Assembly: GCF_001570585.1 (NCBI RefSeq)
Contig: NZ_BBXF01000002.1
Span: forward strand, 372,001-436,000
Reading direction: 5' to 3'
Origin: Herbidospora daliensis
GTDB lineage: Bacteria > Actinomycetota > Actinomycetes > Streptosporangiales > Streptosporangiaceae
DNA length: 64,000 nucleotides
This document shows positions 2,155 through 18,204 of this stretch, one piece after another (the first letter of the stretch is position 1; every line of letters starts with the position of its first letter). Made by a program: the position numbers and the translations under genes. A model generated the notes under the pieces. It searched no databases and was not told the origin of the DNA. It saw nothing but the letters and a program-made list of their open reading frames with translations.

Positions 2155-3600
2155 TCAGCTCACCCCGGCGGGGACGGGAGCGTCCTCCTTCTCCACGGTC
2201 TCGCGCAGCGGGGCCGGGCGGAAGAACAACGTCGCGACCACGCCCAGGGCGGCGATGGCGGCCGAGACCAGGAAGATGTGGCCGGTCGCGTCGGCGAACG
2301 CCACCGGGAGCGGGCTCTTCACCGCGTTCTCGGCGACCTGGTCGGCCAGGATTGCGCCGAGGACCGAGACGCCGATGGTGCCGCCGAGGGAGCGGAAGAA
2401 GGTGATCGCGCCGCTGGCGGCGCCCAGGTCGTGCAGGGCCACGGTGTTCTGCAGGGCCAGCACCAGGTTCTGCATCGACATGCCGACCCCGGCGCCGACC
2501 AGGACCATCGCCGGGATGATCCACCAGATCGAGGTGGTGTGGTCGATCCGGGAGAGGCCGAGGAAGCCGACGGTGAGGATGACCGAGCCCGAGATGATCC
2601 ACGGGCGGACCCGGCCGGTGCGGGAGATGATCTGGCCCGAGATCGCCGAGGAGAGCAGCACGCCGGCCATCATCGGGATCGTCATCAGCCCGGCCTCGGT
2701 GGGCGTGAAGCCCCGGCCGACCTGGTAGTACTGCCCGAGGAAGACGGCGCCGCCGAACATCGCCATGCCGACCGCGAGGCTGGCGAGGATGGCCAGGGCC
2801 GGCGTGCGCTGCTTGATGACGTGCAGCGGGACGACGGGGTCCTTGACCCGCGACTCCACGTAGGTGGCCAGGCCGAGCAGCACGAGCGAGCCGCCGACCA
2901 TGACGGCGCTCTGCCAGGAGATCCAGTCGAAGGAGTTGCCGACGAAGGTGATCCAGACGAGCAGCACGCTGACGCCGGCCGCGATGAGGCCCGCCCCGGC
3001 GTAGTCGACCTTCACGTCGCGGCGCACGGTCTCGACCTTGAGGGTCTTGAACAGCAGCGCCCACGCGACCAGGCAGAACGGCGCGGCGATCCAGAAGCAC
3101 CAGCGCCAGCCGAGCCACGAGGTGTCGGCGATGACGCCGCCCAGCAGCGGGCCGCCGACGGTCGCCACGGCCATCACGCCGCCGAGGTAGCCGTTGTACT
3201 TGCCGCGCTCCTTCGGCGGGATCATCGCCGCGATGATCACCTGGACGAGCACCTGCAGCGCCCCCATGCCGAGGCCCTGGACGGCCCGGAAGGCGATCAG
3301 CTGCCCGGTGTCCTGGGCGAACCCGCAGGCCAGCGAGCCGATGAGGAACAGGCCGACGGCGACCTGGAGAAGGGTCTTCTTGTTGTAGAGGTCGGCGAGG
3401 CGGCCCCAGATCGGGGTCGTCGCGGTCGCGGTCAGCAGAGAGGCGGTGACGACCCAGGTGTACTGCGACTGGGTGCCCTTCAGCGCGGTGATGATCTGCG
3501 GCAGCGCGACCGAGACGATCGTGCTGGAGATCATCGCGACGAACAGCACGAGCAGGAGGCCGCTGAGCGCCTCCAGGACTTGCCGAGAATTTTTGCTCAC
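2155..3600 (-). CDS. MFS drug-efflux transporter, DHA2 (EmrB/QacA) type
   Basis: A 481-residue integral membrane protein with about 14 hydrophobic segments. It has the MFS motif A region GRLADLYNKK (about residue 65-75) and the antiporter motif C-like stretch AVATVGGPLLGGVIAD (about 150-165), typical of the 14-helix DHA2 drug:H+ antiporters. It is divergent from the TetR gene at 3652, and the 51-bp gap carries an imperfect palindrome overlapping the likely promoters. This is the classical arrangement of a repressor controlling an exporter. The exported compound is not identifiable. Confidence 0.9.
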   Translation of the reverse strand: MSKNSRQVLEALSGLLLVLFVAMISSTIVSVALPQIITALKGTQSQYTWVVTASLLTATATTPIWGRLADLYNKKTLLQVAVGLFLIGSLACGFAQDTGQLIAFRAVQGLGMGALQVLVQVIIAAMIPPKERGKYNGYLGGVMAVATVGGPLLGGVIADTSWLGWRWCFWIAAPFCLVAWALLFKTLKVETVRRDVKVDYAGAGLIAAGVSVLLVWITFVGNSFDWISWQSAVMVGGSLVLLGLATYVESRVKDPVVPLHVIKQRTPALAILASLAVGMAMFGGAVFLGQYYQVGRGFTPTEAGLMTIPMMAGVLLSSAISGQIISRTGRVRPWIISGSVILTVGFLGLSRIDHTTSIWWIIPAMVLVGAGVGMSMQNLVLALQNTVALHDLGAASGAITFFRSLGGTIGVSVLGAILADQVAENAVKSPLPVAFADATGHIFLVSAAIAALGVVATLFFRPAPLRETVEKEDAPVPAGVS

Positions 3601-3651: not shown

Positions 3652-4239
3652 GTGGGACTGAGAGAGCGGAAGAAGGCCGAGACCAGGCAGGCGGTCCACG
3701 AGGCCGCGCTGCGGCTGACCGTCGAGCTGGGCTTCGACGCGGTGACCGTCGAGGCCGTCGCCGACGCCGCCAACATCTCCCGGCGCACGTTCTCCAACTA
3801 CTTCGCCGGCAAGGAGGACGCCGTCCTCTACGGCGAGGAGCAGCGCATCCAGGACCTCGTCGAGGGCATCCGCCGCCGCCCGGCCGGCGAACGCGCCTGG
3901 CCCGCGCTCTGCCGCGCCTCCGCCGAGCTCTACGCGGCCCAGGGCAAGGAGGCCGACCGCGAGTGGGCGATGCGCACCCGGCTGGCCCGCCGCCACCCGG
4001 CCCTGCTCGCCCGCCAGCTCGCCAACCAGGCCCTGCTCGAAACCGAGATCGCCGTCGAGGTCGCCGCCCGCGAGGGCCTGGCCGACCACACGCTCCGCCC
4101 GCGCGTGATGGCGGCGGCCTTCCTGGCGGCGCTGCGCGTCGCCATCGCCGTCTGGCTCGACGAGCGCGAGTCGCGCCCGCTGGGCGAGGTGCTCCAGGCC
4201 AGCCTCGCCGAGATGGGCGAGGACTTCACCGGGAGCTGA
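3652..4239 (+). CDS. TetR-family transcriptional regulator
   Basis: A 195-residue repressor. The N-terminal helix-turn-helix is clear: VTVEAVADAANISRRTFSNYF followed by KEDAV, the usual TetR signature at residues 25-55. The C-terminal domain is variable and would bind an effector. The GTG at 3652 gives the usual short arm before the HTH; an in-frame GTG at 3643 is equally possible. It probably represses the divergent DHA2 exporter. Its 3' end overlaps the antisense MgtC remnant by 14 bp. Confidence 0.9.
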   Translation: MGLRERKKAETRQAVHEAALRLTVELGFDAVTVEAVADAANISRRTFSNYFAGKEDAVLYGEEQRIQDLVEGIRRRPAGERAWPALCRASAELYAAQGKEADREWAMRTRLARRHPALLARQLANQALLETEIAVEVAAREGLADHTLRPRVMAAAFLAALRVAIAVWLDERESRPLGEVLQASLAEMGEDFTGS

Positions 4240-4577
4240 CGGCTACCTCGAGCACGCCGTCGAGGTCGGTCAGCTCCAGGGCCAGGCCGGAGATCGACCC
4301 TCCGCCCTGCAGCACCATCCGGATCGTGATCGTTCCGGGGCCCGAGCACGTCGGCGAAGCCGTACTTCGATACGATCATGAAGAGCGCCGCGCCCAGGCC
4401 GACCAGCGTGTGGGTGCGCAAGCCGGCCCCGTGCTGGCGGCGTTCGCGCTCCAGGCCGATCGCGGCCGACAACACCATCGCCAGTGCCAGTTCGCCGATC
4501 TGGACCCAGCCCTGCCCCTCCAGTTCCACCTCGCGGACATACCCCGGCAGTGTGAAAGTTTCGGCGTAACGGCTCAA
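4226..4577 (-). pseudogene. MgtC/SapB-family remnant with internal deletion and frameshift
   Basis: Read from a TTG at 4577, the first ~57 codons match the MgtC/SapB N-terminus: IGELALAMVLSAAIGLERE, then HGAGLRTHTLVGLGAALFM, then a KYGFADVLG segment. The frame then becomes nonsense. A different frame from about 4333 down to the TGA at 4226-4228 encodes an ACT-like C-terminal tail, including TITIRMVLQGG and GLALELTDLDGVLEVAVS. The middle of the protein (remaining helices and most of the cytoplasmic domain of a ~230-residue family) is absent. I read this as a large internal deletion plus frame change, so a non-functional gene. Confidence 0.7.
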
Positions 4578-4695
4578 ACATTTCTCTGTCGTTTCCCGCT
4601 GGCGTTGCCTATTCTGCCGATACGAGAAATTTCAGTGCTTGTCCTGCCTGGGCAAGTTGTCACTTTCCGTGCCCCCTGACCGGGTTCATGGTGGC

Positions 4696-4709
4696 TCGAA
4701 ATGTTTCGA
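4696..4709. promoter_or_regulatory. perfect inverted repeat before the NRPS operon
   Basis: TCGAAATGTTTCGA consists of two perfect 6-bp arms around TG. It ends 4-13 bp before the candidate GTG starts of the AMP ligase. A protein bound here would block the leader or ribosome-binding region of the NRPS operon. The binding factor is unknown. Confidence 0.35.
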
Positions 4710-4722
4710 AACGGTGGTAGCC

Positions 4723-6180
4723 GTGCGGGTTGACCGACACCTCACGCTTCCCGACCTGCTCGCCCGCCGGGCCGCCGAGCAGGCCGAGAAGACGGCGATC
4801 GTCGTCGCCGACGTCGGCGAGATCACGTTCGGCGACTGGGACCGCCGGGCCGACGCGACCGCCCGGTCCCTCGTGGAGCGCGGCCTCTCGCCCGGCGACC
4901 GCGTGGCGCTCGTCTTCGGGGAGCGCGACTGGATCGACTACGCCGTCGCCTGGTGCGGGGTGCTGCGCGCGGGCGGCGTGGCGGTGCCGCTCTCGGAGCG
5001 GTCGGCCCCGGCCGAACTCGAACACGCGATGGCCGACTGTGGGGTCGTACAGACGATCTCGAAGGACACCGCGGCCGAGCTGGCCGCCAACGACACCGCC
5101 CCCATGCGACGGTGCCTCGGGCCCGAGAAGCTGGCCCAGATCATCTACACCGCCGGCACGACCGGCCGGGCCAAGGGCGTCGGCGCGACCCACGCCAACC
5201 TGGCCTTCGGCGTCGATCCGCGCCATCGCAAGCTCGCCCATTCGCGGCACTTCCTGCACGCCTTCCCGATCGGCACCAACGCCGGGCAGACCATGCTGGT
5301 CAACGCGCTCGACGCCCGCCCGGCGGCGCTGACGACCCCGATGTTCACGCCGGGGCGCTTCGCCCGGCTCATCGAGCTCCACCAGGTGGGCACCGTGTTC
5401 GTGGTCCCGGCGCACGCCATCCAGCTGCTCAACGCGGGCGTGCACGAACGGCACGACTTCGGCTCGGTCAGGCTGCTCGGCTCGACGGCCGCGAGCCTGC
5501 CGCCGAGCGTGGCGGCCGGGATGGCCAGGGCGTTCCCGAAGGCGACGATCGTCAACTACTACACGTCGACCGAGGCCGCGCCCGCGCAGACGGTGATGAT
5601 CTTCGACCCGAACCGGCCCGGCTCGGCCGGCCGCCCCGCGCAGGGCGCCGAGCTGCGGATCCAGTCGCCCGACGGCGATCCGGTGAAGCCCGGGGAGACC
5701 GGCGAGGTCTGGTTGCGCTCGCCCGCCGGGACCCGCGTCTACTACGGCGACCCGGAGGCCACCGACCGGGTGTTCCGCGACGGCTGGGTGCGCATGGGCG
5801 ACCTCGGCTACCTCGACGACGACGGCTACCTCTACCTGGTCGACCGGGAGAGCGACGTCGTCGAGTCGGGCGCGCACAAGGTGTCGACGCTCCAGGTCGA
5901 GGCGGCGCTGCACGAGCACCCGGCGGTCGCCGAGGCGGCCGTCGCCGGGTTGCCGCACCCGGTGCTCGGCCAGGTGACCGGCGCGGCCGTGGTGACCCGC
6001 GCCCCGGTGACCCCCGCCGAACTGCGCGCCTTCCTGCTCGACCGGCTCGCGCCGCACGAACTGCCCGGCAGGCTCGTGTTCGTGGCCGAGTTGCCCAAGA
6101 ACCACCTCGGCAAGGTGGTGAAACCCCGCCTGCTCGACCTGATCGGGCCGGCCCGCACGCCCACCGGACGGACATCATGA
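4723..6180 (+). CDS. free-standing AMP-dependent acyl/aryl ligase (adenylation enzyme)
   Basis: About 485 residues, a full-length adenylate-forming enzyme. It has the phosphate-binding motif IIYTAGTTGRAKG (about 140-153), the YYTSTEA motif (about 280), MGDLGYLDDDGYLYLVDR (about 360) and the C-terminal catalytic lysine in NHLGKVVKPRL (about 468). All core residues appear intact, unlike the A domains of the next gene. It would activate a carboxylic acid as its adenylate for loading onto a carrier protein or CoA. GTG codons at 4714 and 4723 are both possible starts. The stop overlaps the NRPS ATG (ATGA), so the genes are translationally coupled. Substrate unknown. Confidence 0.85.
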   Translation: MRVDRHLTLPDLLARRAAEQAEKTAIVVADVGEITFGDWDRRADATARSLVERGLSPGDRVALVFGERDWIDYAVAWCGVLRAGGVAVPLSERSAPAELEHAMADCGVVQTISKDTAAELAANDTAPMRRCLGPEKLAQIIYTAGTTGRAKGVGATHANLAFGVDPRHRKLAHSRHFLHAFPIGTNAGQTMLVNALDARPAALTTPMFTPGRFARLIELHQVGTVFVVPAHAIQLLNAGVHERHDFGSVRLLGSTAASLPPSVAAGMARAFPKATIVNYYTSTEAAPAQTVMIFDPNRPGSAGRPAQGAELRIQSPDGDPVKPGETGEVWLRSPAGTRVYYGDPEATDRVFRDGWVRMGDLGYLDDDGYLYLVDRESDVVESGAHKVSTLQVEAALHEHPAVAEAAVAGLPHPVLGQVTGAAVVTRAPVTPAELRAFLLDRLAPHELPGRLVFVAELPKNHLGKVVKPRLLDLIGPARTPTGRTS

Positions 6181-9100
6181 AGCGGGCCCCCGGCCACTTA
6201 CCGGTCGCGATCTGGTTCGACGGCGACCTCGACGTGCCCGCCCTGTTCGCGGCCTGCACCGCCGTGGCGGCCCGGCACCGGGTGCTGTCGGCGCTGGTGA
6301 CCGAGTCGGGCGAGCTCGTCGACGGGCCCGCTCCGGCGGTGTCGGTCGCCGCCGGGGCGACGCCGGACATCGTCGCCGCCGAGATCGCGCGCCCCTTCGA
6401 CCTCGACCACGGGCCGCTCGCCCGCTTCACGCTCGCCCCCGCGGGCGAGGGCCGGCACCTGCTGCTCTTCGTGGCCCACCGGCTGGTGTTCGACGAACTC
6501 TCCAAGGACGTGCTCGTCCGCGACCTGGCCCGCCATTACGACGACCCCCGGACGTCATGGGAGCCGGTGGAGTTCGAGCCGCCGGCCGCGACGCCGCTCG
6601 ACGTCGAGGCGGCCGGATACACGCTGCCCGGTCAGCGCCGGTCGGCCCGGTTGGGCCCGGGGGAACGGGTCGAGGGCGACGACGCCGTGCTCGCGTCGGC
6701 CGCCGCCGTCGCGGCGGCGGCCGGGGTGACGACGTTCGAGGCGCTGCTGGCCGGCGTGCACGCCCTGCTGTTCCGGTACGGCGTCGAGACCCCCGCCGTC
6801 CTGGTCGACGTCACCACCCGGGGACCGCACACCCGCGACCACATCGGCCCCTACGTCAACGAGGTGCCGGTCGTCACCCGGCCGCACGACCCGCTGTCCT
6901 TCCACGACTTCACGCGGGAGGTGCGGGCCCAGGTCCGCGGCCTCGACCGCACGGCCCGGCCGGCCCGGCCGCCGTCGATCCCCGTCTCGCTGAGCTACCG
7001 CCGGGCGGGCGCGCCGCCCGAGTTCCGCGGCCTCGGCGTCACGGTCGACCACACGGTGTCGGCCGAAGGCGTACGCGGCCCGCTGCACCTCCAGGTCGTC
7101 GACGGGCTCGGCAGCTGGTCGCGGTTCGACCCCGAGGCGCTCGACCGGGAGACGGTGGTCCGGTTCCGCGACGCGCTCGGCACGCTCCTCGCGCACGCCG
7201 CCGCCGAGCCGGAGGTCACCGTCGGGGAGCTCGACGTCATCCCCGCCGCAGACCGGGAGAAACTGCTCGTCACCTGGAACGACACCCGGGTCGCCCACCC
7301 GCCGGTCACCCTGCCCGAGCTGTTCGCGGCCCAGGTGCGCACCACCCCCCACGCGGTCGCGGTCTGGTACGACGACCGCACGCTCACCTACGCCGAACTC
7401 GACATGGCCGCCGGGCGGCTGGCCGGACGGCTGCGCCGGCTCGGCGTCGGCCCCGGCGACCTGGTGGCGGTCCGGATCCCGCGCTCCGACGACCTGCTGA
7501 TCGCGCTGCTGGCCGTGGTGCGGACGGGGGCGGCGTACCTGCCGCTGGATCCCTGCCACCCGGCCGAGCGCCTCGACGCGATCGTGGACGACGCGCAGCC
7601 GAAGCTGGTGCTGACCGACGCGCGTGCCGACGACCACGAGGGCTACCTGCGGCTGATCGCCCCCGACGACCTCGCCTACGTGAGCTACGCCTCGACCGGG
7701 CAGCCGGCGGGCGTCGAGGTCACCCACGGGAACCTGGCGAACCTGTTGTCGTCGATGCGGGACCTGCTGGGGCCGGGCCCCGCCGACCGATGGCTCGCCC
7801 TCACCTCCCCGGCGGCCGACGCCGCCGCGCTGGAGCTCTTCCTGCCGCTGATCACCGGCGGCCGGGTGGTCATCGCGGGGGCGGGGGCCCTTCGCCGGCC
7901 GGAGGCTCTCGTCGCGCTCGCCAAGGCGCAGGACGTCACGTTCGTCCAGGCCACGCCATCGGTGTGGCGGCTGCTGCTGCCGAGCGGCCTCACCGGCGCG
8001 ACGGCGCTGAGCGGCGGTGAGGCGCTGCCCGCGCGCGAACTCAGGCGGCGTTTCGGCCGGGTGGTCAACGTCTACGGCTCGGCCGAGACGACGATCTGGA
8101 GCACCTTCTCCGAGGACGACTCCATCGGGCGGCCCATCGCCAACACCGTCGTCCGGCTGCTCGACGAGCGGTCGCGGCTGGTGCCGATCGGCGTGCCGGG
8201 CGAATTGTGCGTCGGCGGCGCGGGCCTGGCCGACGGCTATCGGTGGCGGCCCGCGCTGACCACCGAGCGGTTCGTGCCCGACCCGTTCGGCGCGCCGGGC
8301 GACCGGCTCTACCGGACCGGCGACCTGGCCCGTCACCGCGAGGACGGCACCCTCGAACGGACCGGGGTCGTGCCGCCGCTGACGCCCGCGCAGCAGCGGT
8401 TGTGGTTCCTGCACCGGTTCGATCCGGCCGATCCGTCGTACCACCTGCACCTCGCGCTCCGATTACGCGGGCCCCTCGACCGCGACCGGCTCCAGGCGGC
8501 GGTCGACGGGGTGGCGGCCCGGCACGAGAGCCTGCGGACGTCCTTCCACGAGGGCCCGGAGGCGCGGGTGCGCCCGCCCGGGCCGGTGCCGATCGAGTCG
8601 TCGCGTGACGTCGAGACGGTCGCCGAGCGCGTCGACGCCCCGTTCGACCTGACCGAACCGCCCTTCCGGGTGGTGCTGGCCGAACTCGGCCCCGACGACC
8701 ACGTGCTCTGCTTCGTGGTCCACCAGATCGTCGCCGACGAGTGGTCGCTCGGGGTGCTGCGCGCCGACCTGTTCGCCCTCTACGGCGACGAAGAGCCACC
8801 TGACCTGGCTCTTCGCTTCGCCGACGCGGCGGCGTGGCGGCCCGGCCCGTCGGTCGACTACTGGCGGGCGCACCTCGGCGGGGCGGCCCCGACGGAACTG
8901 CCCGCCGACCTGCCCGGGGACGGGCCGCCGGTCGGGGCCCGGCACCGGTTTTACGTACCGGAGAACGTCGTCGCCGGGCTCGAACGGCTCGACGCGCCGC
9001 TGTCCACCGTGCTGGCCGCCGCCTACCAGGTGTTCCTGGCCCGGCACTCGGGACAGCAGGACATCGTCGTCGGTACGCCCCGGCCCGCCCGCGACCACGC

Positions 9101-11090
9101 CGAGTTCGAGCCGATCATCGGCTGCCTCACCGACCTGCTGCTCCTGCGCGCCGACCTGACCGGCGATCCGACGTTCACCGGCCACCTGGCGGCGACCGCC
9201 GAGACCGCGCTGGCGGCGCGGGCCCACGGCGCGGTGCCGCTGGAGGAGGTCGGCGGCGACCTGCTCCAGACGACGGTGCTGCTGCACGACCGGCCGCACG
9301 ACCCGGCGGAGCGGGTCGGCGACCTGCGGGTGGAGCCGTTCGACGTCGGCTGCCGGCCGGCCGGGACCGGCCTCGCACTGGAGGCGTGGCGGCAGGACGA
9401 CGGCCTGCTCGCCGTCTTCGGCTACGACACGACCCGGTTCCGGGCCGAGACGGTCGGCGAACTCGCCCGGCGCTTCGGCCTGTTCTTGGACGGCATCGCG
9501 GCCGACCCTTCGACGCCGATCTCGAAGTTGCCGCTGGCGGCCGAAGACCCGATCACCGCCGAACCGGGGCAGGCCGAGCCTTTCTCGTTCACGCCCGGCC
9601 CGGCGACCGCGCTGGTCTGCGGCGACGAGGAGATCAGCTACGCCGAGCTCGACCGGCGCAGCGCTGAACTGGCCGGGGCGCTGCCGCGCGGCGGCGTCGT
9701 CGGGGTCTGTCTCGACCGGTCGGTCGAGGCGGTCGTGGCGCTGCTGGCCGTGTGGCGGGCGGGGGCGGCGTACCTGCCGATGGACCCCGGCCACCCGGGC
9801 GAGTGGCTCGCCCACCTGGCCGGGCACGCCGACGTGGTGATCACCGACCGGCCCGGACGGCTCCCCGAGGTCACCCGGGTCATCACGCCCGACGCCGTCG
9901 GCGATCCGGTCCCCTGGCCGGAGCTCGCGCCCGGCGACCCGGCCTACGTGATCTTCACCTCCGGGTCGTCCGGGGCGCCCAAGTGCGTGCTCACCGAGCA
10001 CGGCGCGGTGGGCGCGCGGATCCGGTGGATGCGGGAGCACTACGGGCTGACCCCGGCCGACCGCGTCGGGCAGTCGGCCTCGCTCGGCTCCGAGGCCCAC
10101 GTCGCCGAGATCTTCCCCGCGCTGTCGGCCGGGGCGACGGTCGTGTTGTCGCCTGACCTGCCGGTCACCGTGCTCCATCTGCCCACGGCCCGCTTCCACC
10201 GGCTCGTCGACGACGCCGCCGCCTGGCCGGAGAGCCTCCGGCTGGTGGTCGTCGGCGGTGCACAGGTGAACGCCGCCGCGGTGACCCGGTTCGGCGGCCG
10301 GGCCCGGCTGGTGAACGTCTACGGCCCGGCCGAGGCCACGGTGGTCGCCACGGCGGCCGACCTGGTGCCCGACGGCTCGCGGCCGCCGATCGGCCGTCCG
10401 GTCGCCGGGACCCTCGCCCGGGTGCTCGGGCCGTGGGGCGAGCCGGTGCCGCCGGGGTCGCCCGGCGAGCTGTACCTGGGCGGGATCGGGCTGGCGCGGG
10501 GTTACGTCCACGACCGGCCGGGGTTCACGCACGTGGACGGCGAGCGCCTCTTCCGTACCGGCGACCGGGTCAGGCGGCGGCCCGACGGGCAGCTGGAGTT
10601 CCTCGGCCGGTTCGACGACCCGGCCGGGCTGCGGGGCGTCCGGATCGAGGCCGCGCTCGACCGGCCCGCCGTGGTGACCGTCAGGGACGGCCGCCTGGTC
10701 GCCTACGTCACCGGCCCGGCCGAAATGACGCAGCCGGGCCCGGACGTCTGGGTGGGCGTCGAGACGCTGCCGCTGACCCTCGGCGGCCGGGTCGACCTGG
10801 CCGCCCTGCCCGACCCGCCGCCCGTGGTCGCGGCCGAGTTCGTCCGGCCCCGCACCGACGCCGAGACGCTGGTCGCCGACGTGTGGGCCGACCTGCTCGG
10901 GCTGCCGGAGGTGGGGGCCCTCGACGACTTCTTCGCACTCGGCGGACACTCGTTGCTGGCGCTGCGGGTGACCTCGCGACTGCGGGAGGCGCTGGAGTTG
11001 GACGTACCGATAAGAACGGTCTTCGAACGGCCGACCGTGGCCGGACTCGCACTGGCCGTCGAGGAACTGCTTGATCTGGAGATGGCATGA
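6177..11090 (+). CDS. aberrant non-ribosomal peptide synthetase, C-A(truncated)-C-A-T
   Basis: A 1637-residue protein. C domain 1 (about 1-370) lacks the N-terminal C1 motif, and its HHxxxDG site reads H101-R-L-V-F-D-E. A domain 1 (about 380-730) has a shortened A3 (YASTGQPAG, no lysine) and ends after YRTGDL (about 711-716). Motifs A8-A10 and a T domain are missing, and the chain runs straight into the next C1 motif LTPAQQRLWFL (about 735). In C domain 2 the site reads H849-Q-I-V-A-D-E. A domain 2 (about 1133-1545) has good A3 and A5 motifs, Glu1306 in place of the usual A4 aspartate, a shortened C-subdomain and Arg1538 in place of the A10 lysine. The final T domain has the serine in LGGHSLL (Ser1592). 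It has no thioesterase. The reading frame is continuous. Confidence 0.85.
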   Translation: MKRAPGHLPVAIWFDGDLDVPALFAACTAVAARHRVLSALVTESGELVDGPAPAVSVAAGATPDIVAAEIARPFDLDHGPLARFTLAPAGEGRHLLLFVAHRLVFDELSKDVLVRDLARHYDDPRTSWEPVEFEPPAATPLDVEAAGYTLPGQRRSARLGPGERVEGDDAVLASAAAVAAAAGVTTFEALLAGVHALLFRYGVETPAVLVDVTTRGPHTRDHIGPYVNEVPVVTRPHDPLSFHDFTREVRAQVRGLDRTARPARPPSIPVSLSYRRAGAPPEFRGLGVTVDHTVSAEGVRGPLHLQVVDGLGSWSRFDPEALDRETVVRFRDALGTLLAHAAAEPEVTVGELDVIPAADREKLLVTWNDTRVAHPPVTLPELFAAQVRTTPHAVAVWYDDRTLTYAELDMAAGRLAGRLRRLGVGPGDLVAVRIPRSDDLLIALLAVVRTGAAYLPLDPCHPAERLDAIVDDAQPKLVLTDARADDHEGYLRLIAPDDLAYVSYASTGQPAGVEVTHGNLANLLSSMRDLLGPGPADRWLALTSPAADAAALELFLPLITGGRVVIAGAGALRRPEALVALAKAQDVTFVQATPSVWRLLLPSGLTGATALSGGEALPARELRRRFGRVVNVYGSAETTIWSTFSEDDSIGRPIANTVVRLLDERSRLVPIGVPGELCVGGAGLADGYRWRPALTTERFVPDPFGAPGDRLYRTGDLARHREDGTLERTGVVPPLTPAQQRLWFLHRFDPADPSYHLHLALRLRGPLDRDRLQAAVDGVAARHESLRTSFHEGPEARVRPPGPVPIESSRDVETVAERVDAPFDLTEPPFRVVLAELGPDDHVLCFVVHQIVADEWSLGVLRADLFALYGDEEPPDLALRFADAAAWRPGPSVDYWRAHLGGAAPTELPADLPGDGPPVGARHRFYVPENVVAGLERLDAPLSTVLAAAYQVFLARHSGQQDIVVGTPRPARDHAEFEPIIGCLTDLLLLRADLTGDPTFTGHLAATAETALAARAHGAVPLEEVGGDLLQTTVLLHDRPHDPAERVGDLRVEPFDVGCRPAGTGLALEAWRQDDGLLAVFGYDTTRFRAETVGELARRFGLFLDGIAADPSTPISKLPLAAEDPITAEPGQAEPFSFTPGPATALVCGDEEISYAELDRRSAELAGALPRGGVVGVCLDRSVEAVVALLAVWRAGAAYLPMDPGHPGEWLAHLAGHADVVITDRPGRLPEVTRVITPDAVGDPVPWPELAPGDPAYVIFTSGSSGAPKCVLTEHGAVGARIRWMREHYGLTPADRVGQSASLGSEAHVAEIFPALSAGATVVLSPDLPVTVLHLPTARFHRLVDDAAAWPESLRLVVVGGAQVNAAAVTRFGGRARLVNVYGPAEATVVATAADLVPDGSRPPIGRPVAGTLARVLGPWGEPVPPGSPGELYLGGIGLARGYVHDRPGFTHVDGERLFRTGDRVRRRPDGQLEFLGRFDDPAGLRGVRIEAALDRPAVVTVRDGRLVAYVTGPAEMTQPGPDVWVGVETLPLTLGGRVDLAALPDPPPVVAAEFVRPRTDAETLVADVWADLLGLPEVGALDDFFALGGHSLLALRVTSRLREALELDVPIRTVFERPTVAGLALAVEELLDLEMA

Positions 11091-11323
11091 CCGAAGAGCT
11101 CAGGGTCCGGCTGGCGGGCATGATCGCGGACGCCTCCAACGGCGTGATCAGCCCCGATGAGGTGCTGTCCGGACGGCACACGCTGTCGGCCCTCGGATTG
11201 ACCTCGCTGGCCAGGATCAGCCTCATCGACACGATCGAGGACGTCTTCGGCCTGGAGATCGACCTCAGCGGCGACCTGTCGTCGTTCGAGGACGTCGACA
11301 CCCTCGTCGCGGCGCTCAAATGA
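11087..11323 (+). CDS. free-standing acyl/peptidyl carrier protein
   Basis: A 78-residue carrier protein with the phosphopantetheine attachment motif LGLTSLA (Ser40), an acidic helix II (IDTIEDVFG) and the usual four-helix length. It overlaps the NRPS stop and the next gene start by ATGA, so all are produced together. It probably holds the acid activated by the free-standing ligase, or an intermediate offered to the free C-domain protein. The intact serine suggests a working carrier. Confidence 0.85.
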   Translation: MTEELRVRLAGMIADASNGVISPDEVLSGRHTLSALGLTSLARISLIDTIEDVFGLEIDLSGDLSSFEDVDTLVAALK

Positions 11324-12585
11324 AGATCGAGTTCGTCGGCGCCACAGCGGGGGAGGCGCCGATGACGTGGGGGCAGCGGCTCATGTGGCGGGCCGTGCAC
11401 CTCATGGGCGCCAGCCAGAACTACCTGAACTGCCCCTTCGTCTTCCCCGTCTACGGCCGTCGCGAGTTGTCCTTCGTGCTCGACGCCCTGCGGGTGCTGA
11501 TCGAACGGCACGAGGCCCTGCGGACCACCTTCTCCGACGCCGGGCAGCGGGTCAGCCGCAGCGGCGTGCTGGAGATCGAGCTCGTCGAGGCGGGGGCCGA
11601 GCGCGGGCTCAGGGTGGCCGAGCGGGTGGCCACCGAGATGGCGCACGCCGTCTTCGACCACGGCTCCGAATGGCCGCTGCGCTGCACGGTCGTACTGAAG
11701 GACGGCCGCCCGTTCGCGCTGGCCTGCGTCTTCACCCACCTGGCGGTCGACTACGCCGCCCTCGCGCTGCTGGCCGAGGAGTGGAAGGCGCTGCTGCGCG
11801 GGGCCGTGCTGCCGCCGGTGGCGTGGCAGCCCCGCGACCAGGCCGGGCTGGAGTCGTCCGACCGCTGGCAGGCCCGGTCGGCGCGGTCGATCGCCTACTG
11901 GCGCGACGTGCTGCGCGACACCCCGCTCGACGTGTTCGACCATCCGCCGAGCGAGCCGGAGAACCCGCGGTTCATCGAGGTCACCATGGACTCGCCGGCG
12001 CTGGCGGTGGCCGCCACCCGGTTGTCGAACCGGCTCACGGTCAGCTCGACCAGCGTGATCCTGGCCGCCTGCTCCGAGGCGCTGGCCCAGGTCAGCGCGC
12101 GGTCGCGGGTGGTCATGCAGCTCGTGCACAACAACCGCCGCGACGCCAGGACCCGGGAGATGGTCGGCACGGTCGGCCAGGACGCCCTGATCGTCCTCGA
12201 CCCTCCCGGGCCCGACTTCGCCGAGTTCTGCCGCAACACCCACCGCGCCGCCCTGCAGGCCTACCGCAACGCCCACTACGACCCGGCCGCGATGACCGTG
12301 ATGCGCGAGCAGGCCGGCGGCCACGACCTCGACGCCTTCTTCAACGACCGGAGGGCCGCCCCCGGCTGGCCGGCCCTCCCGCCCGACACCGACCTTTCGG
12401 TGGCGAACACCCGGACGTACACGGAGAAGGCCTGGCCGGGGGTGCGGTTCAAGGTGTTCTTCACGGTCGGCGCCGACCCGGGCACCGGCCTGCTGAGCCT
12501 CATCGCCGACACCGCCTACCTCCCCCGGGCCACGGCGGAGTCGATGTTGCGCGGCGTCGAGGCCCGGCTGGTCGGGGCGGTCTAG
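11320..12585 (+). CDS. free-standing NRPS condensation-domain protein
   Basis: A 421-residue protein with the condensation/CoA-acyltransferase fold. It has the N-terminal TWGQRLMW (C1-like) and IERHEALRTTF (C2) motifs, and the active site THLAVDY with the catalytic second histidine (His140) and Asp144 retained. It is the only C domain in the operon that keeps this histidine. It probably joins the product on one carrier protein to an amine or alcohol acceptor. Its TAG stop shares a CTAG with the stop of the convergent AhpD-like gene. Confidence 0.8.
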   Translation: MKIEFVGATAGEAPMTWGQRLMWRAVHLMGASQNYLNCPFVFPVYGRRELSFVLDALRVLIERHEALRTTFSDAGQRVSRSGVLEIELVEAGAERGLRVAERVATEMAHAVFDHGSEWPLRCTVVLKDGRPFALACVFTHLAVDYAALALLAEEWKALLRGAVLPPVAWQPRDQAGLESSDRWQARSARSIAYWRDVLRDTPLDVFDHPPSEPENPRFIEVTMDSPALAVAATRLSNRLTVSSTSVILAACSEALAQVSARSRVVMQLVHNNRRDARTREMVGTVGQDALIVLDPPGPDFAEFCRNTHRAALQAYRNAHYDPAAMTVMREQAGGHDLDAFFNDRRAAPGWPALPPDTDLSVANTRTYTEKAWPGVRFKVFFTVGADPGTGLLSLIADTAYLPRATAESMLRGVEARLVGAV

Positions 12586-13151
12586 TCGGCGATCGGGCGG
12601 CCGAAGTCGACCGCCGCGAGGATGCCCTCGGGGGTGGCGGTCCGCAACTGCGCGTCCGGCCGCAGGCCCAGCGCGTCGTTCACGGTCGAGAAGGCGATGC
12701 GGAGCGCGACGAACGTCGTCATGTCGAAGATCTGCGCGTCGGTGAACCCGGCGTCCCGCAGTTCCTGTACGTCGTCCTCGGTCGTCGCGTGAGGCTTGCG
12801 GGTGACCTTGCGGGTCCACGCGGCGACGGCCCGCTCGGCCTCGGTCAGGCCGGCGTCGTCGCCCGTGAGCACCGAGGCCGCCGTCTCGGCGTCGGCCCAG
12901 GAGGCGAGCTTGTTGCCCCACGAGAGCGCGCAGTAGGAGTTGCCGTAGGCGACCGCGCACGCGGTCACCATGACGCCCCGCAGCCGCAGCGGGATCTCGC
13001 GGGTGACCTGGCGGGCCATGCCGAAGATGCCCTCGGCCACCTCGGGCCGGTAGCCCCAGAAGCGGGTGGCGTTCATGACGTACCCGAGCTCCTCGAGATC
13101 GACCTCGGCCTCCGCCGGGTCGGCCTCCATGTCGGCCAGGAAGCTGCTCAT
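12582..13151 (-). CDS. AhpD/carboxymuconolactone decarboxylase-like protein
   Basis: A 189-residue all-helical protein of the peroxidase-related/CMD superfamily. The segment ACAVAYGNSYCALSWGNKLA (about 75-95) corresponds to the AhpD active-site helix, but only one of the two cysteines of the CxxC motif is present in the usual place. Thiol peroxidase activity is therefore uncertain. The ATG follows a good AAGGAGG and overlaps the methyltransferase stop by one base (TGATG). It is the last gene of the three-gene SARP/methyltransferase operon. Confidence 0.75.
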   Translation of the reverse strand: MSSFLADMEADPAEAEVDLEELGYVMNATRFWGYRPEVAEGIFGMARQVTREIPLRLRGVMVTACAVAYGNSYCALSWGNKLASWADAETAASVLTGDDAGLTEAERAVAAWTRKVTRKPHATTEDDVQELRDAGFTDAQIFDMTTFVALRIAFSTVNDALGLRPDAQLRTATPEGILAAVDFGRPIAD

Positions 13152-13942
13152 CACGCCTCCTTCCGGGCCAGGTAGCCGACGACGTCGATGCTCGCCCGCA
13201 GCGGCAGGCCCGACCGCAGCCGTTCTTCCGCCCCCTTGATCGCGGCGGCGGTGAACGCGTCCTCGCCGATGTTCTGGATCGCCTCGTACGCCGGCCCGGT
13301 CGACGCCAGCGCCCGCGCGTAGGTCGCCGGGTCGGCGAACTCCCACGCGAACGGCACGCTCACCCGCCGGACCCCGGTGAACCCGTACTCCGCCAGCATC
13401 TGCTCGCCCGCTCCCGGACGCCCGAGGGCGACCATGTTGCGCTGGTTGTCCACCTTCGGCTCGGTGGCCAGCCGGAACGGCGCCAGCGCCCACGCGCCCG
13501 GCGACTTCTTGATGTGCCCCCACACGGTCAGCGCGACCCGGCCGCCGGGCTTCAGCACCCGGTGGATCTCCCGCAGCGCGACCGGCGTGGTGCCCCAGAC
13601 GCCGCGGAAGCTGGTCACGGCGTCGAACGACGCGTCGTCCCAGGGCAGGTCGTGCATGTCGCCGACGCGGACGTCCGCGCCGGGGTTGCGGTCGCGGGCC
13701 ACCGCGACCAGCCGGGCCGAGGCGTCGATGCCCGCCCCCTGAGCGCCCCGGGCGGCGGCCAGCTCCAGCGCCAGCCCCGCGCCGCAGGCGACGTCGAGGA
13801 TCCGGTCGCCGTCGCCGACGCCCAGGTGCTGGTGCATGGTGACGTATTCTCTGCAGTTCCCCGGTTCGCTGAGCGTCGCGAAGTCGACCGCGCGGCGGCC
13901 CCACCCCTCGTCGACCAGCGTCCAGGCCGTCGAATCGTACAT
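13151..13942 (-). CDS. class I SAM-dependent methyltransferase
   Basis: A 263-residue methyltransferase. Motif I ILDVACGAGLALE (about residues 47-60) is the SAM-binding loop, followed by the acidic GIDAS, the GDMHDLPW motif and the post-motif LKPGGRVALTVWG (about 125-138) of the UbiE/Methyltransf_11 group. No signal or membrane segment. It lies between the SARP regulator (12 bp upstream) and the AhpD-like gene (1-bp overlap), so it is probably co-transcribed. It may act as a tailoring enzyme for the convergent NRPS locus, but the substrate is unknown. Confidence 0.85.
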   Translation of the reverse strand: MYDSTAWTLVDEGWGRRAVDFATLSEPGNCREYVTMHQHLGVGDGDRILDVACGAGLALELAAARGAQGAGIDASARLVAVARDRNPGADVRVGDMHDLPWDDASFDAVTSFRGVWGTTPVALREIHRVLKPGGRVALTVWGHIKKSPGAWALAPFRLATEPKVDNQRNMVALGRPGAGEQMLAEYGFTGVRRVSVPFAWEFADPATYARALASTGPAYEAIQNIGEDAFTAAAIKGAEERLRSGLPLRASIDVVGYLARKEA

Positions 13943-13954
13943 TTCCCCTGTTTC

Positions 13955-15748
13955 CTATCGAAGCAGCGCGGCGAGGGCGGGATTGTCGATCCCCGCCCCG
14001 AGTGTCCGCGCGGAGGCGAGCGCCGTCGGGTCCCCGAGACGGGCGCGGTGCAGATGGGCGCGCACCACCCATTCGCGCATGTCGCAGCGGGCCGCGAGCG
14101 ACCCGAGCGTGGTGACGAGCGGGCGGGCCCGCTCGGTGTCGCCGGCGTCGAGCGCGCAGGCGATCGTCGCGTCGAGCACGTTGGCGTGCACCCACTGGTA
14201 GCGGTCGGGCAGCCGGTTGCAGCTGTCGGTGGCCTGGCCGAACCAGCGCAGCGCCGCCGCGTACTCGCCCAGGTTGCGGCTGAGCAGGCCGAGCCCCCGC
14301 GCGGCGGTGCCCTCCCAGCACGGGTCTTCGACCTGGCAGGCCAGCACCCACGCCCGTTCGAGGCCGTCGGCGGCGGCCTCGACGTCGCCCATGCGCAGGT
14401 CGATCTCGGCGCGCAGCGCGGTCGGCCACGGCAGGAACGCCATCCAGCGCTGCTCCTCGGTCAGCTCCAGCGAACGCCGCAGCACCTGGTGGGCCTGGGA
14501 ACGTTCGTCGCGCATCAGGTGGACGCGGCCGAGGATCGACAACGACCACGCGTGCTGCTTGTGGTGGCCGCCGCGGGCGGCCAGCTCGATCGACCGCTCC
14601 AGGTGCCCGATCGCGGCCCGGTAGTCGCCCTGGTCGGAGGTGTTCTGGCCGAGCACCCCGCAGATCGCCGCCGTCTCGGCGTCGGTCCGCGCCATCGCGG
14701 CGGCCTTGGTCAGCCACATCGTCGCGGCGGTCCGCCGGCCCGCCTTGACCTCGACGAAGCCGAGCTCCCGGTGGGCGGTCACCGCGACCGACCGGTCGCC
14801 CGCGGCCTCGGCGTGCAGGATCGCCTCGTGCAGCGCCAGCGAGCCCTCCTCGTCGCGTCCCTGCAGGGCGTGGACGAGCGCGCCGCCGAGCGCGCAGTAG
14901 GCCCGCGCCTTCAGCGCCGCGTCACCCGTCCGGGCCGCTTCGGCGACCGCCGTCCGCAGGCACTGGACGCCCGCCGCGACGGCCCCGGCCATGATCGCGG
15001 CCTGGCCCGCGTCGAGCTGGCTGACGGCGGCGGCCCGGCCGCTGAGCGGCGGCAACATCGGCGAGTCCGAGCCCACTTTGACCGCCTCCCGCAACGCCGG
15101 AGAGGTCTGCACGCCCAGCTCGCGCCGCATCAGGTCTTCGCACACGGCGACCTGCTTCAGCGCGGCGGGCCGGTCGCCGGCCATGGTGAGGCTGCGCACC
15201 AGCAGCTCGTGGTTGCCCTCGTCGAGCGGGTTGTGCTCGACCGCGCGGGCGGCGTACACGACCGCTTCTCTGGCCCGGCCGGCGGCGAGCAGCCGGGCGG
15301 CGGCCTGCCGGAGCCGGGCCTCGACCATGCCGGCGACCCGGTGGCGGGCCACCAGGAGCCAGGACTCGAACTCGAGGGAGGACGCCAGGTGCACACCCTC
15401 GAGCAGTTCTCCCCCGAGTTCGAGCAGCGGCGCCGGATCGGCGTCCTGGTCGAGCAGGACGTGCACGTCGACCGTGACGTCCTCCCCGAAGCCGGTGCGG
15501 ACCGGGTCGCCCGAGAGGGCTTCCCGCAGGCCCAGCGCGCGGCGCAGTTCGGCCAGCGTCCAGCGCAGCGCGCCCAGCGGGTCGTCGGCGTCGCCGAACA
15601 GCAGCTCGGCGAGGCGCTTGCGGCTGGGCGGCCGCTCGGCCAGCAGCAGATAGGCGAGCAGGGCCCACGCCTTCCGGCCGCGCGGCGGTTTCGCCGGTCC
15701 GCCGCCTATTTCGACGGCGGGCGGCCCGAGCAGCCGGATCGACACCAT
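13955..15748 (-). CDS. SARP-like BTAD/TPR transcriptional activator
   Basis: A 597-residue regulator. The N-terminal ~85 residues are an OmpR-type winged helix (RGRKAWALLAYLLLAERPPS, KRLAELLFGD, LRWTLAELRRAL), followed by a bacterial transcriptional activation domain (about 95-240). The remainder is a long TPR-like helical array (about 250-590). It lacks an NB-ARC ATPase, unlike the SARP at 62417. Such proteins commonly activate secondary-metabolite operons. Its place beside the NRPS genes suggests it controls them and the two genes downstream; this is inferred from context. Confidence 0.8.
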   Translation of the reverse strand: MVSIRLLGPPAVEIGGGPAKPPRGRKAWALLAYLLLAERPPSRKRLAELLFGDADDPLGALRWTLAELRRALGLREALSGDPVRTGFGEDVTVDVHVLLDQDADPAPLLELGGELLEGVHLASSLEFESWLLVARHRVAGMVEARLRQAAARLLAAGRAREAVVYAARAVEHNPLDEGNHELLVRSLTMAGDRPAALKQVAVCEDLMRRELGVQTSPALREAVKVGSDSPMLPPLSGRAAAVSQLDAGQAAIMAGAVAAGVQCLRTAVAEAARTGDAALKARAYCALGGALVHALQGRDEEGSLALHEAILHAEAAGDRSVAVTAHRELGFVEVKAGRRTAATMWLTKAAAMARTDAETAAICGVLGQNTSDQGDYRAAIGHLERSIELAARGGHHKQHAWSLSILGRVHLMRDERSQAHQVLRRSLELTEEQRWMAFLPWPTALRAEIDLRMGDVEAAADGLERAWVLACQVEDPCWEGTAARGLGLLSRNLGEYAAALRWFGQATDSCNRLPDRYQWVHANVLDATIACALDAGDTERARPLVTTLGSLAARCDMREWVVRAHLHRARLGDPTALASARTLGAGIDNPALAALLR

Positions 15749-16180: not shown

Positions 16181-16281
16181 GGTTGTCCCCCTCATTGGAC
16201 GTCGTCGTGTGACGAACCCCGACTATCCGGGCCCACCGTGTGAGGAGGCGTGTGCGCGTGGACCGCTCCTATCATGAGGTC

Positions 16282-18204
16282 GTGAACGCGGAGCCTGGCA
16301 TACCGGCGTCGATCGACAGCTATCGCATCCTCCACCGCATCGGCCACGGCGGCCAGGGCGCGGTCTACCGCGCCGAAGGCCCCGACGGCGCCCCGGTCGC
16401 CCTGAAGGTCCTCCACGACGAACTGTCGAAAGACGCCGACCACCGGCGGCGGTTCCTGCGCGAGGTCGAACTGGCCCGCCGGGTCGCCCCGTTCTGCACC
16501 GCCCGCGTGCTCGACATGGGCGTCTTCGGCGACCGGCCCTACATCGTCAGCGAGTTCGTGCCCGGCACCTCCCTCCACCACGTGGTGCAGCAGGAGGGCC
16601 CCCGCACGGGCGGCGGCCTCGAACGCCTGGCCGTGGCGACCGCGACCGCGCTGGCGGCCATCCACCGGGCCGGGATCGTGCACCGCGACTTCAAGCCCAG
16701 CAACGTGCTGATGGGCCCCGAGGGCCCGGTCGTCATCGACTTCGGCATCTCCCGCGCCCTCGACCACACCGCGACGATGTCGGGCTCGATCGGCACCCCC
16801 GGCTACATGGCCCCGGAACAGATCGAGAACGGCGAGATCACCCCCGCCGCCGACGTCTTCGCGTGGGCCGCCACCATGGCCTTCGCCGCGACCGGCAGAC
16901 GCGCCTTCCCCGGCACGACCGTGCCCCAGCTGATCAACGCCATCATGACCCGCGAACCCCGGCTCGACGGCGTGCCCCCGAACCTGCGCCCGCTGATCGA
17001 ACAGGCCCTGAACAAGGACCCGGCGCTCCGCCCCACCGCCCCCGACCTGGTCAAGGCGCTGACGGGCGACGACTTCGCGGTCGAGACGATGCCGCTCGCG
17101 CCCCCGGTGAAGAACCGCAGACCGGCCTGGCTGGCCGGCGCCCTGGCGGTCGTGGTGGCCGGCGGCGTGCTGACCTGGCAACTGTGGCCGAAGCCCGACA
17201 CCGGCACGACGGGAGAGGGCGCCCGCATGGGCACCACGCTCACCTTCGGCCAGCCGGTCGGAAACCCGGTGAACGTGCAGGAAGACGACGTCCGCAACAT
17301 CGGCTACATCACCGTCGGCGGCGTACCGACGGCGGTGAGCGGCGGCGACGACAACACCGTCCGCGCCGTCGACCTCACCACCGGCACGGAGCTCCACGCC
17401 ATGACGGGCCACGAGAAGTGGGTCAGAGACGTGGCCGTCGGCCTGCTCGACGGCACCGAGATCGCCGTCACCGCCGCCGACGACGGCTCCCTGCGCATCT
17501 GGGACCTGCGCAAGGGCACCCAGCTGAGCAACCCGATGCTCGGCCACGAGGGAGGGGTCAAAGGCGTCGACCTCGGGACGCTGAACGGCGACCCCATCGC
17601 GGTCAGCGGCGGCGTCGACGGCACCGTCCGCGTCTGGGACCTGCACAGCGGCGAGCAGATCGGCGACCCGATGACCGGCACCACGGGAGCCGTCTGGGCG
17701 GTCGCCCTGGCCGAGGCGAACGGCGTCCCGATCGTGGTCAGCACCGGCGACGAGGGCTGGGTCCGGGTCTGGGACCTGACCACGAGGCAGCAACTCGGCG
17801 ACCCGATGACCGGCCACATCGGCTGGGCCAGATCGATCGCGATCGGCGCCCTCGACGGCAAGCCCATCGCCGTCACGGGCGGCGAGGACAAGACCGCCCG
17901 CGTCTGGGACCTGACGACCCGAACGAGCCTCGGCACCCCGCTGACGGGGCACACGAGCTGGGTGTGGGGCGTGGCCCTGGGCGAGTCAGACGGCAAGACC
18001 ATCGCCGTCACCGCCAGTGAGGACAAGACCGCCCGCGTGTGGGACCTGGCGGCCGGGGCCGAAATCGGCGAGCCACTGGAGGGGCACACCGACCGGGTGT
18101 ATTGCGCGGCTTTCGGCACGGTCGACGGAAAACCGGTCGCCATCACAGGCGGCCGCGACGAGTCGATCCGCCTATGGGACCTGTCGCCCCCGCTACCCGG
18201 CTGA
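16282..18204 (+). CDS. Ser/Thr protein kinase fused to a WD40 propeller
   Basis: A 640-residue Hanks-type kinase. The glycine loop IGHGGQGAVY (20-29), VALK with Lys42, HRDFKPSN, DFG and the GTPGYMAPE activation segment are all present, so it should be active. A single transmembrane helix (AWLAGALAVVVAGGVLTW, about 290-307) places the C-terminal part outside the cell. That part holds seven repeats ending in (R)(V/I)WDL, enough for a complete seven-blade beta propeller, which probably binds a ligand or protein outside the cell. The GTG at 16282 has GAGG upstream; longer in-frame starts exist. Confidence 0.88.
   Translation: MNAEPGIPASIDSYRILHRIGHGGQGAVYRAEGPDGAPVALKVLHDELSKDADHRRRFLREVELARRVAPFCTARVLDMGVFGDRPYIVSEFVPGTSLHHVVQQEGPRTGGGLERLAVATATALAAIHRAGIVHRDFKPSNVLMGPEGPVVIDFGISRALDHTATMSGSIGTPGYMAPEQIENGEITPAADVFAWAATMAFAATGRRAFPGTTVPQLINAIMTREPRLDGVPPNLRPLIEQALNKDPALRPTAPDLVKALTGDDFAVETMPLAPPVKNRRPAWLAGALAVVVAGGVLTWQLWPKPDTGTTGEGARMGTTLTFGQPVGNPVNVQEDDVRNIGYITVGGVPTAVSGGDDNTVRAVDLTTGTELHAMTGHEKWVRDVAVGLLDGTEIAVTAADDGSLRIWDLRKGTQLSNPMLGHEGGVKGVDLGTLNGDPIAVSGGVDGTVRVWDLHSGEQIGDPMTGTTGAVWAVALAEANGVPIVVSTGDEGWVRVWDLTTRQQLGDPMTGHIGWARSIAIGALDGKPIAVTGGEDKTARVWDLTTRTSLGTPLTGHTSWVWGVALGESDGKTIAVTASEDKTARVWDLAAGAEIGEPLEGHTDRVYCAAFGTVDGKPVAITGGRDESIRLWDLSPPLPG

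Follow-up and report, generated by a model that had tools for sequence, protein, structure and literature searches.

The window analysed here, a stretch of 64,000 nucleotides (nt) from the actinomycete Herbidospora daliensis (contig NZ_BBXF01000002.1, positions 372,001 to 436,000), carries a gene for a non-ribosomal peptide synthetase (NRPS) whose frame is open without interruption over 1637 residues (6177–11090, forward strand). Judged from its sequence, this gene appears to be the remnant of a two-module NRPS with the architecture C-A-T-C-A-T (condensation, adenylation and carrier domains) from a lipopeptide-type operon. We consider it probable that the synthetase is dead and erodes under a constraint which keeps its frame open, selection acting on the translation of the two distal operon genes encoding a standalone acyl carrier protein (ACP) and a standalone condensation protein (C protein). 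In the genus Herbidospora this synthetase (NRPS1) has shrunk by mostly lineage-specific, frame-preserving deletions. The gene is not a new kind of synthetase; it belongs to a replicated natural series in which an NRPS is removed while its frame is protected.

The synthetase gene of the window and its full-length relatives

The domain layout of the window gene is C1-A1 core-C2-A2-T (Table 1). As stated in the initial annotation of this DNA, its 4.9-kb frame is intact with a normal coding bias, the GC contents at codon positions 1, 2 and 3 being 0.80, 0.52 and 0.95. The lack of an A8–A10 subdomain and of a T domain after A1, claimed in the same place, agrees with a Pfam search, which yielded matches to AMP-binding, Condensation and a single PP-binding stretch and none to AMP-binding_C (PF13193) down to E 0.1; the intact relative L065 contains two AMP-binding_C and two PP-binding stretches. 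A carrier domain with its serine follows A2 only and not each A domain. The second His of the HHxxxDG motif is missing from both C domains (R102, Q850) and the catalytic A10 Lys of A2 is replaced (Arg1538); these exchanges, as well as Ala511, Glu1306 and a shortened A3 loop (6 nt less than in H. sakaeratensis and H. galbida), were all found where they had been reported. In the window species, the peptide assembly line is very likely no longer functional, given the incomplete A1, the key residues missing from A1, A2, C1 and C2 and the absence from the locus of the second synthetase of related clusters (NRPS2).

The window gene is a homologue of NRPS1 according to its syntenic position between an acyl-AMP ligase (AAL) and the ACP and C protein genes and to its similarity along the whole length, its segments being 46–59% identical to the NRPS1 of nine full-length sister-genus loci. 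Relatives were collected with the C protein as marker, which gave matches (E ≤ 1e-20) in 140 of the 341 family genomes searched, all seven Herbidospora genomes among them. Twenty long stretches from outside Herbidospora were compared. Nine contain a full NRPS1 open reading frame (ORF) of about 2067–2288 aa as called, the start in L033 being called too far in; L063, L069 and L080 are truncated at contig ends, no NRPS1 match above 38% identity was found in the fetched stretches of L066, L067, L068 and L070, and L076–L078 are more distant clusters. The full cluster of the sister genera consists of AAL, NRPS1 (C-A-T-C-A-T), NRPS2 (C-A-T-TE-MFS, with a thioesterase, TE), often MbtH, ACP and the standalone C protein. 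The NRPS1 of L065 and L073, the two run through Pfam, comprise two A, two carrier and at least two condensation stretches, and MbtH was recognized in several relatives, in L081 by a Pfam match and in others by resemblance. The C1 motif HHLVFDG is present in all eight relatives whose C1 is covered by the alignment, and the A2 motif GSTGxPKG, the A10 Lys and the T serine are each present in all nine full-length relatives.

Three peculiarities of these relatives may be added. In Sphaerimonospora mesophila (L072), the C gene is preceded by a single-module C-A-T synthetase of 1341 aa (4381–8406), which takes the place of the two-module NRPS1 and may be a further reduced form. NRPS2 of L065 (4141–9735, reverse strand) and of L064 (9603–15404, forward strand) carries an MFS transporter domain at the C terminus of C-A-T-TE, all in one chain. 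In the synthetase of genome G179 (L079), a GAGSR motif is tandemly repeated within the C1 domain.

Frame-preserving deletions in Herbidospora

Seven Herbidospora genomes were compared, namely the window genome (G000), H. yilanensis (G001), H. sakaeratensis (G002), H. cretacea (G003), H. galbida (G004), H. solisilvae (G005) and G006. Their flanking genes are collinear and 72–98% identical, and between them stand different remnants. Beside the five-domain form of the window, G002 has a truncated C1, A1, C2, a shredded A2 and T (1086 codons), G004 has C1-A1-T (815 codons), G003 and G006 have an in-frame fusion of C1-A1-C2 with the ACP (1228 and 1189 codons, ACP counted), and G005 has an AAL stub, the A1 core and the ACP as one frame (536 codons); in G001, the AAL is a stub and the NRPS is gone apart from scraps of its T end. 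NRPS2 was not found between remnant and ACP in any of the seven, the rest of the genomes not being searched. A tree built on six neighbouring genes, ((G003,G006),((G001,G005),(G004,(G000,G002)))), fully supports the groups G003/G006 and G000/G002 as well as the division into five and two species, with weaker support elsewhere. The A1 core is the sole part common to all six NRPS-bearing species; for each of C1, C2, A2 and T there is at least one sister species in which it is lost or disrupted, and deletions cut inside domains (C1 and A2 of G002, A1 of G004, C2 of G006). The loss after A1 had been called precise in the initial annotation; the A1–C2 junction proved to be ragged and different among the four species retaining C2, and therefore part of the A8–A10 and carrier loss may be inherited from an ancestor.

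The catalytic residues were lost independently, lineage by lineage. The C1 motif reads HR in the window and G003 and HH in G004 and G006 (HHLVFDG), while the C2 motif reads HQ in the window and G002, HR in G003 and HH in G006 (HHIVADG). The A1 Lys is lost in the window, G003, G004 and G005 and present in G002 and G006 (GSTGQPKG in the latter), and the carrier Ser of G004 is replaced by Ala (GGHALL). The substitutions highlighted in the window are thus real but are not conserved features of the locus.

Indels were counted in ten species pairs as net length changes between blocks aligned over 24 nt or more with an identity of 66% or higher, from AAL and NRPS up to the ACP. Net lengths were divisible by three in 12 of 12 cases between G000 and G002, in six of six between G003 and G006 and in all four specific to G004 (18, 66, 2241 and 195 nt). 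These disjoint branches together give 22 multiples of three out of 22, for which the chance expectation is (1/3)^22. Other lengths occur once each in G000/G006 and G004/G006 and twice each in G004/G005 and G003/G005; they are joins with an open frame, fusing AAL to NRPS or NRPS to ACP. Under a very cheap gap extension, 86 of the 155 gaps listed for six pairs were not multiples of three, mostly compensating pairs which were judged to be alignment artefacts and discarded. No stop codon was found in the six remnants, whereas two crude neutral models predict 9.5 or 40.6 on the terminal branches, and the GC content at third codon positions (GC3) is still 0.91–0.96. The view of the initial annotation that an intact frame implies selection is borne out by these data. 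When ribosomes were followed from the AAL start, passing stops that overlap a start, the translation path reached the ACP in all seven species: it ends at the ATGA of the ACP in G000, G002 and G004, runs into the ACP in G003, G005 and G006 and arrives by a GTGA hop in G001. Unlike this path count, the multiple-of-three count constitutes strong evidence.

Selection strength was expressed as omega (NG86) on clean aligned segments of the remnants, in place of the value of 0.556 for the whole NRPS, which takes in misaligned shredded regions. The medians are 0.464 for C1 (10 pairs), 0.457 for A1 (15 pairs), 0.521 for C2 (6 pairs), 0.524 for T (3 pairs) and 0.412 for A2 (a single pair). Two paralogous Herbidospora NRPS genes with intact motifs have omegas of 0.265 (15 pairs) and 0.269 (10 pairs) at similar dS, copy A being taken from five genomes and copy B from six of the seven, with the G000 copy left out because its frame, taken from the start of the match, met a stop. 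In these paralogues the HH motif, the A10 Lys and the carrier Ser are present in 12 of 12 and the strict A3 motif TSGSTGxPKG in 10 of 12 cases, and the pairs differ by one to three small indels each (eleven pairs). Neighbouring genes have omegas of 0.335 (AAL), 0.302 (ACP), 0.369 (C), 0.203 (MFS transporter), 0.263 (TetR regulator) and 0.192 (BTAD/TPR protein, 13955–15748). The constraint on the remnant is thus weakened, its omega being about twice that of the intact paralogues, yet it is present.

The ACP–condensation pair and the competing explanations

ACP and C protein are full length in all seven Herbidospora species, and TGGAGATGGCATGA, which precedes and spans the ACP start, is found in all of them including G001. 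In G003, G005, G006 and G001 the frame through TGGAGATGGCATGA is that of the ACP, and hence no stop of an upstream ORF exists there. The motif [T/S]HLxVD of the C protein is present in all 27 sequences compared. In sister genus g68, 14 of the 15 genomes for which a match was listed possess a C orthologue (E < 1e-160); in four loci of this genus with long flanks, neither an AAL nor an NRPS1 match exceeding 38% identity lies nearby, and three of the four contain the ACP. The pair is the likely object of selection.

The operon AAL-NRPS-ACP-C is tight, with three ATGA overlaps at 6177–6180, 11087–11090 and 11320–11323, and RTGA overlaps also exist at most MbtH–ACP and several ACP–C junctions of the relatives. 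In six relatives a full MbtH-like ORF ends at a GTGA overlap with the ACP; in G060, G185 and G198, which lack MbtH, NRPS2 reads in frame through a tail of 13, 11 and 16 codons, respectively, to an RTGA overlap with the ACP, and the 13-codon tail of G060 resembles an MbtH start. In three NRPS-less g68 loci (L044, L045, L050), a 6-codon ORF (MTGGAA) with a GGAGG-like site stands in ATGA overlap with the ACP, and may have been left over from an upstream gene; the fourth (L049) has two codons only before the ACP.

Polarity by Rho and termination-reinitiation at ATGA overlaps are established mechanisms (PMC12548453, PMC10666635). On the basis of the overlaps, translational coupling to ACP and C is most likely the cause of the frame constraint. 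In this scenario, the capacity for peptide synthesis would be lost while the ACP and condensation genes remain under selection. As the last two genes of the operon, they would need ribosomes delivered from upstream, by translational coupling and by protection from Rho-type polarity, and only deletions and substitutions which let ribosomes move on into the ACP would survive. The remnant protein would be a passenger, with a residual constraint on folding and codon usage instead of catalysis. More tentatively, such frame-kept erosion may represent a distinct mode of bacterial gene loss, by which a dead gene in a coupled operon is whittled down, step by step and for the most part separately in every species, to a leader or a fusion with the following gene, since only cuts that preserve the frame would keep the ACP and C protein expressed. 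The forms with 1637, 1228, 1189, 1086, 815, 536 and no codons would then be snapshots of the process and the 6-codon ORF of the sister genus its end point.

Several observations weigh against an eroding passenger gene. Two of the 22 indels are sums of gaps (468 = 124 + 344 nt around an 11-nt match and 465 = 291 + 174). Random deletions preserve the translation path in 22–56% of trials, which makes the path count weak by itself, and in G001 the AAL frame stops 194 nt short of the ACP, so that the path exists only via the GTGA hop, which is plausible by chance. The ACP has a Shine-Dalgarno-like site of its own (−6.4 kcal/mol; random mean −3.3, 5% quantile −7.3), and the need for coupling is therefore not proven. 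The omega of the C protein (0.37) is no lower than that of some ordinary neighbours. In g68 loci with short flanks, the ACP was recognized in only four of nine (L048 lying at a contig end), which makes the C protein the more persistent member of the pair. Finally, the remnant omega lies below the simulated neutral values of 0.86 (K2P) or 2.17 (fourfold-site spectrum), which indicates some protein-level constraint now or recently, and C2 has an omega of 0.36 between G000 and G002 although both lack its His. Since death dates differ by lineage, the sub-neutral average could partly reflect the time during which the genes were alive.

The main rival is a residual function, according to which the remnant protein is selected for itself, as an ACP-binding A1 core, a scaffold for ACP and C protein or a shortened non-canonical condensing enzyme. 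It would draw on the sub-neutral omega, on the A1 core shared by all six NRPS-bearing species (its most likely seat), on the in-frame fusion of the remnant with the ACP in three species and on the catalytic motifs of C1, A1 and C2 retained in G006. We nevertheless regard it as unlikely in view of the deletions within domains, the independent losses of catalytic residues, the doubled omega relative to the intact-motif paralogues and G001, which exists without any NRPS domain. The same data disfavour the scaffolding or non-canonical condensation envisaged in the initial annotation.

Still less probable is ordinary recent decay, separate in each species, with frames left open by chance or for want of time. 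Alignment and the dN/dS analysis revealed full C-A-T-C-A-T relatives and relaxed selection, which had been named beforehand as signs of simple decay, and the independent motif losses and the total loss in G001 point in the same direction. However, decay alone is insufficient because the frame is preserved: against the 22 of 22 net indels, a rough control on the intergenic gaps between the TetR and AAL genes gave 12 multiples of three out of 48 in noisy alignments (G000 versus G002 5/15, versus G004 0/13, versus G005 4/6 and versus G001 3/14), stops are absent where 9–41 are expected, and GC3 is still high. An assembly artefact by collapse of repeated A and C domains in short-read assemblies is highly improbable. 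It would draw on the repetitive nature of NRPS modules, on the draft state of the assemblies and on the 2241-nt join of G004, which falls on corresponding sites of A1 and A2 and could mark such a collapse. However, the junctions differ between genomes from NBRC and NEAU strains, there are many small gaps, flanks are intact and frames open, and microhomology is 0–2 nt at 30 of 31 gap junctions (random mean 0.93), which gives no slippage signal. Erosion with a protected frame remains the explanation we favour.

Neighbourhood, implications and comparison with known systems

The features of the operon and its syntenic flanks are compiled in Table 1. On the opposite strand beside the operon (12582–15748), a set comprising a putative peroxidase-related protein (a weak match below the curated cut-off), a methyltransferase and the BTAD/TPR protein is present in all seven species; a Ser/Thr protein kinase fused to WD40 repeats (16252–18204, forward strand) is likewise syntenic in all seven.

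Table 1. Coordinates of the operon, its domains and flanking genes in the window
Feature	Position	Strand	Basis
MFS transporter, syntenic flank	2155–3600	-	
TetR-type regulator, syntenic flank	3652–4239	+	
Full-length acyl-AMP ligase (AAL) of 488 aa, with which the operon begins	4714–6180	+	Pfam AMP-binding and AMP-binding_C
Probable eroded NRPS1, C1-A1 core-C2-A2-T	6177–11090	+	Pfam, alignment, residue check
C1 domain; Arg102 in place of the second His of HHxxxDG; 48 nt missing in frame from the N-terminal part compared with G004	6177–7241	+	
A1 core, up to and including YRTGDL; A3 loop 6 nt shorter than in G002 and G004; Ala511 for Lys	7242–8348	+	
Ragged junction; A8–A10 and first carrier domain absent	8349–8372	+	Alignment; no PF13193
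C2 domain; Gln850 in place of catalytic His	8370–9596	+	Alignment, residue check
A2 domain with numerous short in-frame gaps; Asp replaced by Glu1306 and A10 Lys by Arg1538	9624–10811	+	
Carrier (T) domain; Ser present (GGHSLL)	10839–11087	+	Pfam, residue check
Ribosome site GGAG, followed by the ATGA overlap of NRPS stop and ACP start; carries TGGAGATGGCATGA	11078–11090	+	
Standalone ACP, 78 aa	11087–11323	+	Pfam PP-binding
Standalone C protein, 421 aa; xHxxxD motif present; ATGA overlap with ACP stop	11320–12585	+	

Elsewhere in the window genome, a second related cluster (L031, G000:C4, ca. 240298–255373) contains two NRPS ORFs (967 aa and 961 aa), a C-A-T protein with an NAD_binding_4 reductase at its end, a DUF6875 protein and a FAD monooxygenase; an AAL-ACP-C protein is encoded there in divergent orientation. 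A service of the window ACP–C pair to this cluster was considered and rejected, no need being evident as the 978-aa AAL protein of the cluster has ACP and C domains of its own. Another adjacent pair of ACP and standalone C protein (41% and 35% identity) is located at G000:C9:200448–201943, which suggests that this combination is a recurrent module.

If the proposed erosion is true, an intact frame and a normal codon bias in a bacterial megasynthase would be no proof of a working enzyme, and pipelines for annotation and genome mining would credit dead synthetases with products. Moreover, the cost of breaking an operon gene would become measurable, the seven species being replicate outcomes of one loss, and the ACP–condensation pair, which is present in some sister-genus genomes without such an NRPS nearby, would become a target with a likely independent function. 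Among the papers listed by literature searches, none dealt with frame-kept erosion of operon genes or with this Herbidospora locus.

Acyl-AMP ligase/ACP starters are known from actinomycete lipopeptide clusters, DptE/DptF of daptomycin being an example. The window operon resembles canonical C-A-T-C-A-T synthetases with such a starter in its homologous domains, their order and the presence of AAL and ACP in one operon, but neither a C-terminal subdomain nor a carrier belongs to its A1, substitutions affect key residues in C1, C2, A1 and A2, and the second synthetase with TE and MFS domains is absent from the locus. In functional NRPSs, the in-frame loss of a module yields shorter products. The internal in-frame deletions of modules are similar; however, the cuts in the window gene lie inside domains and catalytic residues are gone, which makes a working shortened line unlikely in the window species. 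With bacterial pseudogenes and decaying clusters, the Herbidospora remnants share relaxed selection (omega 0.46–0.52 versus 0.265 and 0.269 for intact copies), independent catalytic losses, progressive deletion and one complete loss. In contrast to pseudogenes, they have neither stops nor frameshifts, retain frame and codon bias through many deletions in six species, and their junctions lead into an intact ACP. There is also a resemblance to pairs coupled by termination-reinitiation, as dealt with in parts of PMC12548453 and PMC10666635: overlaps of −4 nt (ATGA/GTGA) exist, in the window at three operon junctions, and the last stretch of the upstream gene and the overlap are retained in Herbidospora. 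The pairs treated in those parts are ordinary genes, whereas the upstream partner in Herbidospora would be a dying enzyme, and its coupling is deduced from the overlaps.

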